The position numbers and the translations under genes are program-made. A model generated the notes under the pieces. The model did not search any database, had not been told where the DNA came from, and saw only the letters and a program-made list of their open reading frames with translations. Positions 25,525 to 32,958 of a stretch of 43,992 bases of DNA are shown in pieces (within the stretch, counting starts at the first letter, position 1; each line of letters begins with the position of its first letter). This DNA is from an uncultured Clostridia bacterium (GTDB taxonomy: Bacteria > Bacillota > Clostridia > Christensenellales > Borkfalkiaceae): the NCBI GenBank assembly GCA_947630115.1, contig CANRGG010000016.1, positions 1 to 43,992 on the forward strand, given 5' to 3'.

Positions 25525-26709
25525 TCAGTGATGGAACAGCCTGAGCCCCGTAAAGCACAGGACCATGCCGTGACGGTCCGCCGCCTCGATGACGAGATCG
25601 TCCCGGACCGACCCGCCCGGTTCGGCGACATAGGTAACGCCGCTCTTTGCCGCGCGGTCGAGATTGTCCGCAAACGGGAAGAACGCGTCGCTCCCGAGCG
25701 AAACACCCTTGATCGTTTTCAGATACGCCTCCCGCTCCTCCTTCGGAAAGGGCGCGGGACGCACCGCAAAGTGGTTGCGCCAGACCTTTTCGCCCAAGAC
25801 CTCCTCCGCCTCGTCCGAAAGATACAGGTCGATGATGTTGTTCTTCTCGGGCCGCCCGACCCCCTCCGCAAAGCAAAGATCGAGCACCTTCGGGTGCTGC
25901 CGCAAGTGCCAAAGATCGGCCTTCTGCGCCGCGAGCCGGGTGCAGTGGATACGGGACTGCTGCCCCGCGCCGACGCCGATCGCCTGTCCGTCCGCGGCAA
26001 AGCAGACCGAATTGCTCTGCGTATATTTGAGGGTGATGAGCGAGACGAGAAGATCGACCGCCTTTTCCTCGGGCAGCTCCCGTTTCTTCGAAACAATGTT
26101 GGAAAGCAGTTCCCGTCCGATCTTGCAGTCGTTTCGCTTCTGCTCGAAGGTCACCCCGAACACCTGCTTTCTTTCCAGCGCCTCGGGAACATAATCCTTG
26201 TCGATCTTCAGGATGTTGTATCCCCCCTTGCGCTTTTCTTTGAGGATTTTGAGGGCTTCCGGGGAATAGGCGGGCGCGATGATCCCGTCCGACACCTCCC
26301 GCGAGATGAGTTTCGCCGTCACTTCGTCGCATTCGCCGGAGAGGGCGATGAAATCCCCGAACGAGCTCATGCGGTCCGTCCCTCTCGCGCGCGCATAGGC
26401 GCAGGCCAAGGGAGAGCCGTCGAGCCCCTCGATGTCGTCGACAAAGCATGCCCGCTTCAATTCCTCGGAGAGTTTCTTTCCCGTCGCCGCCGAAGTCGGG
26501 GAGACGTGCTTGAAACTCGCCGCGCAGGGAAGGTTGGTGCTCTCGCTCAATTCTTTGACGAGCTGCCAGGAATTGAACGCGTCGAGAAAGTTGATGTATC
26601 CCGGTCTGCCGTTCAAGATCTCGACGGGAAGTTCCCCGCCGTTTTCCATAAAGATGCGCGCGGGGATCTGGTTGGGGTTACAGCCGTATTTCAATGTGAA
26701 TTCTTTCAT
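25525..26709 (-). CDS. purH: Stand-alone AICAR transformylase (PurH transformylase domain only)
   Basis: It transfers the formyl group of 10-formyl-THF to AICAR, giving FAICAR. The 394-residue protein corresponds to the C-terminal domain of bifunctional PurH and lacks the N-terminal IMP cyclohydrolase domain. The catalytic Lys-His pair lies in SFKHVSPTSAATG, and QSNSVCFAADGQAIGVGAGQ and SDAFFPFADNLDRAAKSGV are clear family blocks. Such stand-alone proteins are known in some Clostridia. The cyclohydrolase step is supplied by the upstream purO, four bases away. Confidence 0.93.
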   Translation of the reverse strand: MKEFTLKYGCNPNQIPARIFMENGGELPVEILNGRPGYINFLDAFNSWQLVKELSESTNLPCAASFKHVSPTSAATGKKLSEELKRACFVDDIEGLDGSPLACAYARARGTDRMSSFGDFIALSGECDEVTAKLISREVSDGIIAPAYSPEALKILKEKRKGGYNILKIDKDYVPEALERKQVFGVTFEQKRNDCKIGRELLSNIVSKKRELPEEKAVDLLVSLITLKYTQSNSVCFAADGQAIGVGAGQQSRIHCTRLAAQKADLWHLRQHPKVLDLCFAEGVGRPEKNNIIDLYLSDEAEEVLGEKVWRNHFAVRPAPFPKEEREAYLKTIKGVSLGSDAFFPFADNLDRAAKSGVTYVAEPGGSVRDDLVIEAADRHGMVLCFTGLRLFHH

Positions 26710-26712
26710 ATG

Positions 26713-27426
26713 TCATCTCGTAAATTTATTATAGAGAACCGATTCGGTTGTTCCGTCTTTCAAGTCGATCGCCCGCAGATAGAGCGAAATTTTATTGTCC
26801 GGATCGAGCGCGTTCCAGATCGTCTCGCCGAAATCTTTCAGATCGTCCGGCACAAAGATCCTTCTCGGCTCGCCCGTGAACGAGGGAAGGGGCTCGCCGT
26901 TTCCCTCATAGGTATGCAGAAAGTGCCCGAAGCCCTTGACGGGCTCGTAGGCAAAGAAGAACCGATCGCAGGCGCCGTCCGTTCCGTCCGCGCTCTTCAA
27001 AATGGACATTTCATAGGAAAATCTCCCCTCCGTGTGCAGGATCGCGCTGATCCGCGGGGTGAAATTGGGAGCGTCCGGCTCGAATTTCCGCCTCATGAGC
27101 CCGTGCCGGAAGCAGTGCCCCGCTTTGAGCGACTCCTCGATGGTATCCGTCTGGTCGCCGTTCGTGACGATCGTGTCCTTTCCGACGGTCTTGACGGGAG
27201 AATAGATGATGAGGGAGGGATCCTCCAATTTTAAAGGATCAAAGGGCTCCGTTCTGAGCTCCCCATTCAGCTCCCGGAACACGCGGTTGCGGCTGTTTGC
27301 GCTCCTTCCCATGATAAAATAGACAAAAACCGCCCGTTTCCCGTCCGCCGTGAGCCCGACCGCAATGCCGCGCCCCGGATAGGGATTACTTGCCAAAAGA
27401 TCCTTCAATTCAAACGTCTTGTTCAT
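26713..27426 (-). CDS. purO: IMP cyclohydrolase, archaeal PurO type
   Basis: PurO closes the ring of FAICAR to make IMP. The 237-residue protein has the family blocks NPYPGRGIAVG, FIMGRSANSRNRVF, DPSLIIYSP, IVTNGDQTDTI, FEPDAPNFTPRI and HTYEGNGEPLPSF. This is the N-terminal-nucleophile fold first described in archaea and unrelated to the PurH cyclohydrolase. Its place next to the cyclohydrolase-less AICAR transformylase fits exactly. AAAGGAG precedes the ATG, which overlaps the purN stop by 4 bases. Annotation by motif memory is good, but activity is inferred. Confidence 0.88.
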   Translation of the reverse strand: MNKTFELKDLLASNPYPGRGIAVGLTADGKRAVFVYFIMGRSANSRNRVFRELNGELRTEPFDPLKLEDPSLIIYSPVKTVGKDTIVTNGDQTDTIEESLKAGHCFRHGLMRRKFEPDAPNFTPRISAILHTEGRFSYEMSILKSADGTDGACDRFFFAYEPVKGFGHFLHTYEGNGEPLPSFTGEPRRIFVPDDLKDFGETIWNALDPDNKISLYLRAIDLKDGTTESVLYNKFTR

Positions 27427-28034
27427 TTTTGCTCCTTTGCAATCTCTTTTGCGATCTTTTCGATCGCCTCGGGGAAGATGACCCATTCCGCCTCGCGCAT
27501 GACCCGCTTTTGCAGAATTTCGGGGGTGTCCCCCTCTTTGACTTCCACCGCCTTTTGCGCGACGATCGGCCCGCCGTCGCATTCCTTGGTGACAAAATGC
27601 ACCGTCGCGCCCGTGACCTTCACGCCCGCCTTCAAGGCGGCCTCATGCACATACAGCCCGTACATGCCCTCGCCGCCGAAACTCGGCAAGAGCGCGGGAT
27701 GGATGTTGAGGATCCGGCCCTCGAATTCCTTCACGAAATCTTCGCTCAAGATCGTCAAAAATCCCGCCAGGACGACGAGCCCGATCTGATGTGCTTTGAG
27801 GCAGGCGATCATCTCCCGCTCCCGCTGTTTGCGGTCGGGGAACCCCTTCTTGTCGAACACCGCCGTCTCGATCTTGTAATTTTCTGCGCGTTTCAAGGCA
27901 TAGGCGTCCGCCTTGTCGGCGATCATGAGCGACAGCTCCCCGTGCGGAAGCATGCCCGCCTCGGCGGCGTTCACAATCGCCTGAAAATTCGTTCCGCCCC
28001 CCGAACAGAGGACGGCGATTTTAACTTTTTCCAT
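27423..28034 (-). CDS. purN: Phosphoribosylglycinamide formyltransferase
   Basis: PurN formylates GAR with 10-formyl-THF. The 203-residue protein begins with the family block VKIAVLCSGGGTNFQAI, and has VVLAGFLTILS, the catalytic ILNIHPALLPSF with Asn/His, and TGATVHFV and DGGPIVAQ. The ATG at 28034 lies four bases after the purM stop and matches the family start. It overlaps purO by 4 bases. Confidence 0.95.
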   Translation of the reverse strand: MEKVKIAVLCSGGGTNFQAIVNAAEAGMLPHGELSLMIADKADAYALKRAENYKIETAVFDKKGFPDRKQREREMIACLKAHQIGLVVLAGFLTILSEDFVKEFEGRILNIHPALLPSFGGEGMYGLYVHEAALKAGVKVTGATVHFVTKECDGGPIVAQKAVEVKEGDTPEILQKRVMREAEWVIFPEAIEKIAKEIAKEQK

Positions 28035-30609: not shown

Positions 30610-31323
30610 TCAGTTCTTTTCGCTGACGCGCTTGAAGATCTCCCGGTATGCGTCCTCCACCCCGCCGAGATCGCGGCGGAAGCGGTCTTTGTCAAGTTTT
30701 TCACCCGTCTTTGCGTCCCAGAACCGGCAGGTATCGGGCGAGATCTCGTCCGCCAGCACGATCGTCCCGTCCCCGAGTCTGCCGAACTCGAGCTTGAAGT
30801 CGATGAGCCGCACGCCGAGCTCGGAAAAGTATTCTTTGAGCACGCCGTTGACCCGGAACGCATAGGTCTTGATCGTCTCGATCTCCTCCTTCGTCGCAAG
30901 ATGAAGGGCGAGCGCATGATAGCTGTTGATCAGCGGGTCGTCGAGCGCGTCGCATTTATAGGAAAACTCGATGGTCGGCTCGTCGAACACGATCCCCTCT
31001 TCGACGCCGTAACGCTTTGCGAAGGATCCCGCAGAGACGTTGCGCACGATGACTTCGAGCGGGACGATCTTCACCTTTTTGACGAGGGTGTCGCGCTCGG
31101 AAAGTTCTTCGACAAAATGGGTGGGCACTCCTCGCTGTTCGAGGAGCCTCATCAGCATGTTGGACATCTTGTTGTTCACGACGCCTTTCCCCGCGATCGT
31201 GCCCTTTTTCAGTCCGTTGAACGCCGTCGCGTCGTCCTTGTAAGAGACGATGCAAAGGTCCTCCCGGTCGGTCGCAAAGACCTTTTTCGCCTTGCCCTCA
31301 TAGAGCTGTTCTCTCTTTTCCAT
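30610..31323 (-). CDS. purC: SAICAR synthetase
   Basis: PurC joins CAIR and aspartate to form SAICAR. The 237-residue protein starts with YEGKAKKVF and contains the [14 protein letters not shown] block, the [17 protein letters not shown] signature, LIDFKLEFG and the [13 protein letters not shown] signature. Length is normal. It is the second enzyme gene of the operon, after purE. Confidence 0.97.
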
Positions 31324-31353: not shown

Positions 31354-31845
31354 TTATTTGTTTTTCTCTTGCAGCGCAGCGTCCTTTGCAAGAACCTGTT
31401 CCGCCGCCTTTTCCCGCGCGGCGAGAAGCCGGCGAGAGAGCTGCTTGTCCTCAAGCGCGAAGATCTCCGCCGCGAGATACGCCGCGTTTTTCGCCCCGTC
31501 GATCGCGACCGTCGCGACCGGGATCCCCGGGGGCATCATGACGGTGGAAAGGAGGGCGTCCATGCCGCCGAGGGGACCGCTCTTGATGGGGATCCCGATG
31601 ACGGGCAGCACCGTCCCCGCCGCGATCGCCCCCGCAAGGTGCGCCGCCATGCCCGCCGCGCAGAGGATCGCCCCGAAGCCCTTCTCCGCCGCTTCCGCCG
31701 CGAATTTTCTCGCCTCTTCCGGCGTTCTGTGCGCCGAAAAGATATGCGCCTCATAGGGAACGCCGAGTTCTTCGAACACCGCAAACGCCTTTTCCACCAC
31801 GGGAAGATCGGAATCGCTCCCCATGATCACCGCCGCTTTTTTCAT
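31354..31845 (-). CDS. purE: N5-carboxyaminoimidazole ribonucleotide mutase
   Basis: The 163-residue protein has IMGSDSDLPVV and IFSAHRTPEE, which mark a class I PurE (N5-CAIR mutase, normally paired with PurK), and GAAGMAAHLAG-like and GIPI-SGPLGGMDALLS segments. No purK is in the window. Its ATG overlaps the TGA of a 38-codon upstream ORF, and GGAGG lies ten bases upstream. It is the first enzyme gene of the purine operon. Confidence 0.96.
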   Translation of the reverse strand: MKKAAVIMGSDSDLPVVEKAFAVFEELGVPYEAHIFSAHRTPEEARKFAAEAAEKGFGAILCAAGMAAHLAGAIAAGTVLPVIGIPIKSGPLGGMDALLSTVMMPPGIPVATVAIDGAKNAAYLAAEIFALEDKQLSRRLLAAREKAAEQVLAKDAALQEKNK

Positions 31846-31958
31846 CCTTGCAAGACCTCCGTATAAGCAAAAGGGCAGTTCTTCGTCGCAAAGAAAACTG
31901 CCTCTTGAAACTCCTTGATTTGTCTCTCCGCGGCAAGCGGAGGAAAGAACTTTTTCAT
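31842..31958 (-). CDS. Putative 38-residue leader peptide heading the purine operon
   Basis: A 38-codon ORF begins MKKFFPPLAAERQIKEFQEA and ends in EVLQG; its TGA overlaps the purE ATG as ATGA. Its ATG lies six bases after a perfect TATAAT, at the expected transcription start, with no Shine-Dalgarno, matching three other leaderless starts in this window. Third-position GC is lower (about 54% by hand count) than in neighbouring genes, so it may be a regulatory leader peptide rather than an ordinary protein. Two hairpins lie in it: CUCCGC/GCGGAG (31942-31926) and a longer GGCAGUU/AACUGCC. No homologue was recognised. Either a small regulatory protein or an attenuation device is possible. Confidence 0.55.
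   Translation of the reverse strand: MKKFFPPLAAERQIKEFQEAVFFATKNCPFAYTEVLQG
31856..31943 (-). promoter_or_regulatory. Candidate translational/transcriptional attenuator of purE
   Basis: CCUCCG at 31943-31938 is exactly complementary to CGGAGG at 31861-31856, the purE Shine-Dalgarno. The same CCUCCG can instead pair locally with GCGGAG. A second stem GGCAGUU/AACUGCC is followed by CUUUU, a weak terminator-like end. Mutually exclusive pairings are inferred from base complementarity. Confidence 0.5.
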
Positions 31959-31964
31959 GTCCCT

Positions 31965-31993
31965 ATTATATAACGCGCGGGCATGGAAGTCAA
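31965..31993 (-). promoter_or_regulatory. Sigma-A promoter of the purine operon
   Basis: TTGACT (31988-31993), 17 bases, TATAAT (31965-31970). Transcription should start at or next to the ATG of the leader ORF at 31958. No purine riboswitch is recognised in the leader. Confidence 0.87.
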
Positions 31994-31996
31994 GTA

Positions 31997-32023
31997 AAAT
32001 GAGCCCCTTTCGAGAAGGAACTC
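31997..32023 (-). terminator. Possible terminator after the short-chain dehydrogenase gene
   Basis: On the minus strand GAGUUCCUU pairs with AAGGGGCUC (32023-32015 with 32009-32001), using two G-U pairs, and is followed by AUUUU. The G-U pairs exist only in the minus-strand RNA, which fits the direction of the upstream gene. It ends just before the purine promoter. Confidence 0.5.
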
Positions 32024-32073
32024 AAAGTGAAAATGTTCATCGGAGAAATTGACCGCTTCTCACAAAAGCGCTC

Positions 32074-32958
32074 TTATTTTTGATTGAACTTCTTGCGGAC
32101 GAGCCAATCGGTGAAGCGCTCGGGGAGCATTTTATAGGCATAGCGCAGGACGTTGTTCTTTCCGCCCGCGGCAAAGACGGGAGGCGGGTTTTTCCGCTCG
32201 GCGAGTTTGATGATCGAATCCGCGACGAGCGAGGAGGTCATGCCCCCCTGCTCCATGTTGGCGAGCGCCGCCGAAGCCTTCTTGACGGAGGAGGAATAGC
32301 CCTTGCTCTCCTCCTCGTTGTAGATCCTGCGGCTGTAAGTGAAGTCGGTCGCCGTGCCGCCGGGGAGCAGCGCGCACACCCGCACCCCGTGCGGGCGCAG
32401 TTCGAGGTCGGCTTCCCGCGCGAGCATTGCAAGCGCCGCCTTCGAGGAGGAATAAAAGCCGTCAAAGGGAATGGGCATCTCCCCGCCGAGGGAGCCCACG
32501 AGCACCACCCTACCGCCCCGTTTTTTGAGATAGGGCGCGCCGGCGCGGATCGCCTCGATCGCGCCGAAATAGTTGACTTCGAACAGATAGCGATAGTCCC
32601 CGCTCTTCGCATGTTCGAGGGGAGCCGCCATCGAAAATCCCGCCGAATAGATCAGAAGATCGAGCGCGCCCGACTCTGCGCAGATCTCCTCGATCGCCTT
32701 TTCGATCTCCCCCTCCTGCGCGGCGTCTGCGGTGAGCGACTGCACCCGCTCGCCCTTGAAGGGCGTCCTCGAAATGTTGTAGACGCGGTAGCCTTTTGCG
32801 GAGAGTTTGAGCGCCGTCTCCCGGCCGATCCCCGAGGAGCCTCCGACGATGATCGCGCTCTTTCTTGCCGAAGGGGCGGAAGATCTTCTCTCCTCTCCCT
32901 CTTTTTCGGGCGTATTGCCTGTTTCCGGATTCTTTTCCATATCCGAAAGTTTGGACAT
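32074..32958 (-). CDS. Short-chain dehydrogenase/reductase
   Basis: The 294-residue protein has a classical Rossmann SDR core: VGGSSGIG at 38-45, YSAG at 104-107, NYFG at 129-132, and the catalytic S156, Y169 and K173 (YSSSK). A charged, low-complexity N-terminal tail of about 33 residues precedes it. C-terminal residues 250-294 carry extra basic helices (KNNVLRYAYKMLPERFTDWL) typical of SDRs related to 3-ketodihydrosphingosine reductase. Substrate is unknown. No Shine-Dalgarno is obvious; the ATG at residue 7 is an alternative start. It follows a ZIP transporter gene by 100 bases on the same strand. Confidence 0.85.
   Translation of the reverse strand: MSKLSDMEKNPETGNTPEKEGEERRSSAPSARKSAIIVGGSSGIGRETALKLSAKGYRVYNISRTPFKGERVQSLTADAAQEGEIEKAIEEICAESGALDLLIYSAGFSMAAPLEHAKSGDYRYLFEVNYFGAIEAIRAGAPYLKKRGGRVVLVGSLGGEMPIPFDGFYSSSKAALAMLAREADLELRPHGVRVCALLPGGTATDFTYSRRIYNEEESKGYSSSVKKASAALANMEQGGMTSSLVADSIIKLAERKNPPPVFAAGGKNNVLRYAYKMLPERFTDWLVRKKFNQK

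Follow-up and report, generated by a model that had tools for sequence, protein, structure and literature searches.

A conserved, putatively leaderless ORF that stops at a terminator-like hairpin ahead of purE in one genus of Clostridia

Upstream of purE in the genus of an uncultured Clostridia bacterium (family Borkfalkiaceae), a short ORF begins with an ATG at the predicted transcription start and ends, in its own frame, at a terminator-like hairpin. Comparison of related leaders shows an ATG at +1 in nearly all of them, an in-frame stop at the hairpin, a hairpin that recurs from genome to genome, and a peptide that is not conserved. We favour, with a little better than even confidence, the reading that this leader is a translation-coupled transcription attenuator with a leaderless leader ORF and a logic like that of pyrBI.

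Results

The window (the whole 43,992-nucleotide stretch of DNA that was analysed; the features of the locus are all on its minus strand) contains a promoter, TTGACT-17-TATAAT, at 31965..31993, with TTGACT at 31993-31988 and TATAAT at 31970-31965. Six bases, AGGGAC, separate TATAAT from an ATG at 31958-31956, and the transcription start predicted from the promoter is the A of this ATG, at 31958. The ATG opens a 38-codon, apparently leaderless leader ORF (31842..31958) whose TGA, lying within an ATGA, overlaps the ATG of purE (31354..31845; PF00731 and TIGR01162). The original prediction had described this promoter spacing, the ATG, the 38 codons and the overlap of stop and start, and all of them are exact on the minus strand. 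The overlap is weak evidence taken alone, since purE begins ATGA and any ORF reaching that frame ends there. Pfam and NCBIfam searches with the window's leader ORF gave no match.

Two hairpins lie in the leader. The first, CTCCGC-TTGCC-GCGGAG, is small (31926..31942; -9.3 kcal/mol), falls within the leader ORF, is common at the same place in the leaders of relatives and might possibly serve as a polymerase pause hairpin. The second, likewise inside the ORF, is the terminator-like hairpin at 31871..31906 (-14.0 kcal/mol), with a core GGCAG...CTGCC at 31902-31874 and a T-rich tail, TTGCTTATA; it is of moderate strength, and it was absent from the results of a simple terminator scan (8 sites found, 6.1 expected). 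Between this hairpin and purE lies GGAGG, the Shine-Dalgarno-like site of purE, at 31856..31860. The next gene of the operon is purC (30610..31323; PF01259), and the gene families downstream, by profile matches, are PurE, PurC, PurF-like, PurM-like and PurN-like, together with a separate IMP cyclohydrolase-like protein and an AICAR formyltransferase. The latter two are encoded by separate genes, at 26713-27582 (PF07826) and 25525-26709, with no fused PurH, and the archaeal PurO models match the IMP cyclohydrolase-like protein only below their cut-offs. Promoters of the form TTGAC-N16-19-TATAAT occur 4 times in the window, compared with a mean of 0.00 in 100 shuffles. A TTGACA-17-TATAAT promoter at 8939-8911 directly precedes a Ribosomal protein L10 leader (RF00557; 8780-8912, minus strand; 54.1 bits).

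purE was present in 46/61 genomes of a search for relatives and in 75/103 genomes of the genus. The genus leaders compared here number 74, 27 in a first set and 47 in a second, one further locus (G085) having been dropped with its purE cut at a contig end; thirteen loci from other families of the order (L026, L029, L030, L101-L110) serve as outgroups. In 71/74 genus leaders (26/27 in the first set and 45/47 in the second) an ATG begins at the predicted +1, the seventh base downstream of TATAAT, and comparison of the purE upstream regions of relatives thus upholds the short ORF at +1 as a feature kept in the genus. When the first set is anchored on TATAAT, each column of the ATG holds 1.77 bits; among the six bases before it, -3 holds 1.39 bits, -1 holds 1.09 and the rest 0.30 to 0.83, and apart from the ATG few leader columns of this set are conserved. 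The three exceptions lie in one clade, two of them (L016, L228) being without the +1 ATG and the third (L212) without a promoter at threshold. In L016 and L228 GGA stands where the ATG would be, with promoter and hairpin both kept; the frame of L228 is still open up to a stop in the hairpin loop.

A +1 ATG at a TTGAC/TATAAT promoter was not found outside the genus, either at 80 loci of named genomes or at the thirteen outgroup loci. The 80 loci include 36 with a promoter at threshold and 8 with an ATG at 5-7 bases. Six of those eight belong to the genus (L111, L113, L114, L116, L163, L169), and the remaining two (L115, L136) have weaker promoters. purE itself has no match in 28/103 genus genomes, and its lack in 15 of the 60 near-complete ones suggests that part of the genus consists of purine auxotrophs.

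All 76 leaders that have a promoter, 73 of them from the genus, carry a hairpin with a T-rich tail in the stretch from promoter to purE, by a permissive finder that accepts at least 4 T in 8 and whose counts stand without a shuffle control. A stricter terminator finder gave a terminator in 49/71 leaders and missed 22, the window's among them. Measured from the loop centre of this hairpin, the first stop in frame with the ATG lies between -34 and +6 nt in 23/26 ORFs of the first set, compared with 2/26 and 3/26 for the other two frames. Those limits were chosen after seeing the first set and were applied unchanged to the second, in which, with the limits so fixed beforehand, 41/45 comply against 7/45 and 11/45 for the other frames, and none of the 45 stops earlier. 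With the upper limit set at +10, all 71 ORFs divide into 0 that stop early, 67 that stop at the hairpin and 4 that stop beyond it. Shuffles gave means of 26.6, 17.4 and 27.0 for the same three classes and a largest hairpin count of 27/71, and shuffling only the pre-terminator part gave means of 23.4, 26.6 and 21.0 and a largest middle count of 35; odds from these shuffles overstate the case because the sequences are related, a relatedness that the frame controls share.

The 67 stops at the hairpin comprise 47 at its foot and 20 in its loop (the stop of L197, at -23.5 from the loop centre, is inside the limits), and the ORFs concerned end 33 to 126 nt before purE. All three stop codons are used, with 31 TAG, 26 TGA and 14 TAA among the 71 ORFs. 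By the stricter finder, the stop lies at most 6 nt from the stem or inside it in 37/49 leaders, whereas terminators starting at most 6 nt after a stop make up 5/46 of gene-end terminators in 284 kb of the window's genome, the search having begun 30 nt before the stop in leaders and 20 nt before it for genes; when the eight leader values below -20 are left out, 29/41 are still within 6 nt. Leaders therefore have their stops closer to the terminator than is usual at gene ends in this organism. In six leaders (L011, L021, L022, L213, L219, L222) the terminator is another, stronger one (GGGGGCAATTCTATCC... or nearly so); these keep the +1 ATG, and the loop centre follows their stop by 24 to 28 nt.

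Four ORFs pass the hairpin, namely those of the window (L001), L027, L205 and L218. They end +4, +4, +4 and -3 nt from the start of purE, so that a ribosome translating them would cross the hairpin as well. The pass-through form needs four changes on our tree, a quick one in which 11/74 inner branches are starred and 14/77 rows have a short or missing purC; on this tree the overlap with purE appears to be real but uncommon and to have arisen separately, and from these sequences we take it to be a derived minority form. The overlap of stop and start with purE, exact in the window, is accordingly not general, occurring in 3/71 leaders (L001, L027, L205). The original prediction had gone on to propose that translation of the ORF governs entry into purE, an idea that gives way here: the conserved stop lies at the terminator-like hairpin instead, which makes read-through of the hairpin by polymerase the likely point of control, not entry of ribosomes into purE. 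Pure translational coupling, in which ribosomes finishing the leader ORF would re-start at purE, fits the ATGA overlap in the window, L027 and L205, but we think it unlikely, because 67/71 ORFs end as early as the hairpin, purE is preceded by a GGAGG of its own, and an overlap comes easily given ATGA. In the window's species the overlap of TGA and ATG may nonetheless add translational coupling.

The original prediction had also pointed to three other loci with an ATG at +1, and TATAATN6ATG does occur 4 times in the window, compared with a shuffle mean of 0.04. The other three loci open ORFs of 114, 301 and 389 codons and therefore look like leaderless genes; their -35 matches are poor (4/6 and 3/6 at the two that were scored). 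Across the window's genome TATAATN6ATG occurs 38 times and its reversed-pattern control 0 times, and TATAAT-to-ATG spacings of 0-15 pooled give 223 occurrences, compared with 62 for the reversed control, so that the fifteen spacings other than six average about 12 each. An ORF of at least 67 codons is opened at 22 of the 30 TATAATN6ATG loci examined in this genome, which appears to use leaderless starts widely.

The same genome has 107 promoters of the form TTGAC-N16-19-TATAAT, and among the roughly 100 consensus promoters listed, 9 have an ATG at the seventh base. Six of these nine open ORFs of 204 to 418 codons, and two open short ORFs, the window's leader and a 6-codon ORF at L065. An ATG at +1 without a long gene is found at 2, at most 3, of the roughly 100 promoters listed, and judged from these an ATG at +1 is not a general promoter feature of the window's genome. 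It is conceivable that selection holds the ATG for the sake of transcription initiation or a stable 5' end, with the ORF incidental, given that transcripts usually begin with A and that the first set also shows a bias at -3 (G) and -1 (C/T). We give this little credence, however, as it leaves the stop of that one frame at the hairpin unexplained, along with the scarcity, at the genome's other consensus promoters, of +1 ATGs that open no long gene.

In 14 non-overlapping pairs of leader ORFs of equal length, differences at codon positions 1:2:3 stand at 59:62:68, compared with 19:19:69 in the purE starts of the same 14 pairs. Conservation with synonymous substitutions, by which the original prediction proposed to judge the ORF in relatives, thus fails for the peptide, and the amino-acid-level conservation expected of a peptide- or codon-sensing leader was not seen in these pairs. 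The peptide is by this comparison not what selection keeps; it is the start and the stop that look to be under selection.

Discussion

How might a leader with a fixed start, a fixed stop and a free peptide control a purine operon? We propose that RNA polymerase would start at the A of the ATG, so that a ribosome could load on the bare 5' end once it has emerged. If the first ribosome keeps up, it would reach the stop, which lies at the foot of the terminator hairpin or in its loop, or, in the window's genome, run through the hairpin to the start of purE. A ribosome at the hairpin would block its folding and the polymerase would read on into purE; a polymerase that outruns the ribosome would let the hairpin form, and transcription would end. 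Since the start is fixed, the stop is fixed at the terminator and the peptide is free, it is the position of the ribosome that would matter. The signal would most likely be the relative speed of polymerase and ribosome, such that low purine nucleotides slow the polymerase and turn the operon on; purine supply is our best guess, and base composition lends it no support. We infer the transcription start, translation, termination and the direction of control from sequence, and the signal least surely.

Low UTP turns on E. coli pyrBI, and pyrE is a further near system. The pyrL ORF of pyrBI crosses its terminator, as the ORFs of the window, L027, L205 and L218 cross their hairpin, and in both pyrBI and this genus a leader ORF would be translated to or across an intrinsic terminator before a nucleotide-synthesis operon. 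In pyrBI, a ribosome close behind the polymerase prevents the terminator hairpin (PMC10135430). The leader studied here differs in that its ORF is apparently leaderless, the operon is for purines, there is no nucleotide bias, the stop is mostly at the hairpin and coupling is not expected in the phylum. It shares with pyrBI-type systems a terminator between promoter and first gene (by the permissive finder) and an ORF that runs to or across the terminator. A nucleotide-specific pausing sequence was not found, there being no purine bias beyond that of coding sequence: the leaders are 57.3% purine up to the hairpin, near the 58.2% of the purE start, in contrast to pyrL with 49% U. As it has no such sequence, we do not file the leader as a member of the pyrBI type, although it may work like one.

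A leaderless ORF in such a role has a possible counterpart elsewhere. Canestrari et al. 2020 reportedly describe leaderless poly-cysteine short-ORF attenuators in mycobacteria. Judged by that title, the two arrangements have in common a short leaderless ORF, putatively so here, at the start of an operon, and they differ in that the mycobacterial ORFs sense cysteine through their codons, whereas here the peptide is unconserved and the stop is linked to a terminator hairpin. In the open-licence literature searched, by title and abstract opening, we found no leaderless or leader-peptide attenuator of a purine operon; on leaderless starts in Clostridia one paper came up, on start sites in C. difficile. 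That a stop codon can act on a terminator is known from E. coli, where shortening the distance from stop to terminator from 28 to 5 bp brought termination down from about 90% to <10%, and where termination was maximal with the stop beyond 27 nt (PMC4824070). Those stop-repressed terminator reporters resemble our leaders in having a stop within a few nt of the stem; they were built in an engineered long gene, whereas here we deal with a putatively leaderless leader of a natural operon. Against an attenuator stands a phylum-level classification that places Bacillota among the species in which polymerase runs ahead of ribosomes (PMC13323073). The missing nucleotide bias, the moderate hairpin of the window, missed by both the simple scan and the stricter finder, and the unremarkable fold of its whole leader also count against it.

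It is also possible, though improbable, that the ribosome turns the operon off, with the 5' end (AUGAAAAG...) acting as an antiterminator with the 3' arm of the terminator and a ribosome on the AUG breaking that pairing. In 12/25 leaders the first 25 nt do form a more stable pairing with the 3' arm than do about 97% of their shuffled versions. But the antiterminator was set aside as a candidate structure, own partners (mean -12.2 kcal/mol) showing no excess over those of other genomes (-11.7 kcal/mol; permutation p 0.18), and a stop at the foot of the hairpin puts the ribosome on the 5' arm, where it would hinder the terminator. A second candidate, a helix closing the 5' end onto the stretch before the hairpin, appears in single folds and was likewise rejected, being missing from the consensus fold of 26 leaders, which contains the small hairpin and the terminator only. 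The window's leader as a whole folds no better than shuffles (z 0.13), and the pre-terminator parts of 67 related leaders fold somewhat better (mean z -1.07), largely through the small hairpin.

The attenuator as we propose it shares its place with a known riboswitch in some relatives. The original prediction had set a translated leader in place of a purine riboswitch, and for the window this stands: no purine riboswitch turned up in it, no Rfam family matches its leader, RF01750 (ZMP/ZTP) was found neither in the window at gathering score nor in 31700-32100 at E up to 5, nor in the window's genome under stricter filters, and the ORF is conserved. As a general contrast it does not, as RF01750 does lie before purE in 6/74 genus leaders (L008, L012, L203, L215, L216, L230) and at 4/13 of the outgroup loci examined (L026, L029, L030, L101). 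In those six leaders it sits between promoter and purE, just before the terminator; the window's leader and the remaining genus leaders that were scanned lack it, and the putatively leaderless ORF is present either way, all six having the +1 ATG and stopping in frame between 0.5 and 8.5 nt beyond the loop centre. The distribution is patchy, since RF01750 at purE needs four changes on the tree, on which gain and loss are indistinguishable. RF01750 was found in 12 of 36 other genus genomes, at purE in two of them and at other places in ten. The next long ORF after the ten that lie away from purE (L091-L100) is the same protein in 8/10; the one tested, that of L092, is pyruvate formate-lyase-activating protein (TIGR02493), and the others of the eight look alike.

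To start translation on a bare 5' AUG, a ribosome needs formylated initiator tRNA and GTP-loaded IF2. One might therefore speculate that the leaderless start is itself the sensor, reading one-carbon and purine status through translation initiation and largely replacing the ZTP riboswitch, a reading to which we assign a low probability. The ZTP riboswitch senses a related shortage through RNA, and if translation favours read-through, a sensor working through initiation would be opposite in sign.

Sensing of the peptide or of particular codons, by an arrest peptide or by trp-like attenuation, is very unlikely. A subset of the ORFs shares the look MNRA...KRG...FVRS, but this candidate was rejected on the codon-position differences, in which constraint from the RNA hairpins could mask some signal. 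Within pairs from the subset, residue-changing codons amount to 10/13 (L195/L226), 10/12 (L196/L210) and 7/11 (L191/L220), although to only 1/4 in L007/L204. The least probable reading is a new or degenerate riboswitch in the leader that controls the hairpin, which could draw on RF01750 being at the same place in six leaders and on the folding of the pre-terminator parts, but which sits poorly with the lack of any Rfam match in the window's leader, a consensus fold limited to the small hairpin and terminator, and the few conserved columns.

If the attenuator reading is right, evolution would here be keeping the start and stop of a leader ORF and not its content, with ribosome position as the signal. 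Translation-coupled attenuation would then operate in a phylum classed as one of runaway transcription, and leaderless initiation would gain a use as a fast loading device. The genus would also offer a case of a leaderless leader that shares the place ahead of one gene with a metabolite riboswitch in a few genomes and in most has that place to itself.

Short ORFs at +1 ahead of other genes may be more widespread in the window's genome. At L065 (G000:C2:74710-74724) the 6-codon leaderless ORF, MKNIEE, has a good promoter, and the gene that follows is presumably rpmH, from its look by eye. A 47-codon ORF at L082 (G000:C12:6876-6890) has its ATG six bases after TATAAT, with a poor -35, and ends 18 nt before a 447-codon ORF, which we take by eye to be dnaA. 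L068 and L084, leaderless-looking ORFs with 9 and 21 codons, either share an ATGA with the ORF that follows or stop 1 nt short of it.
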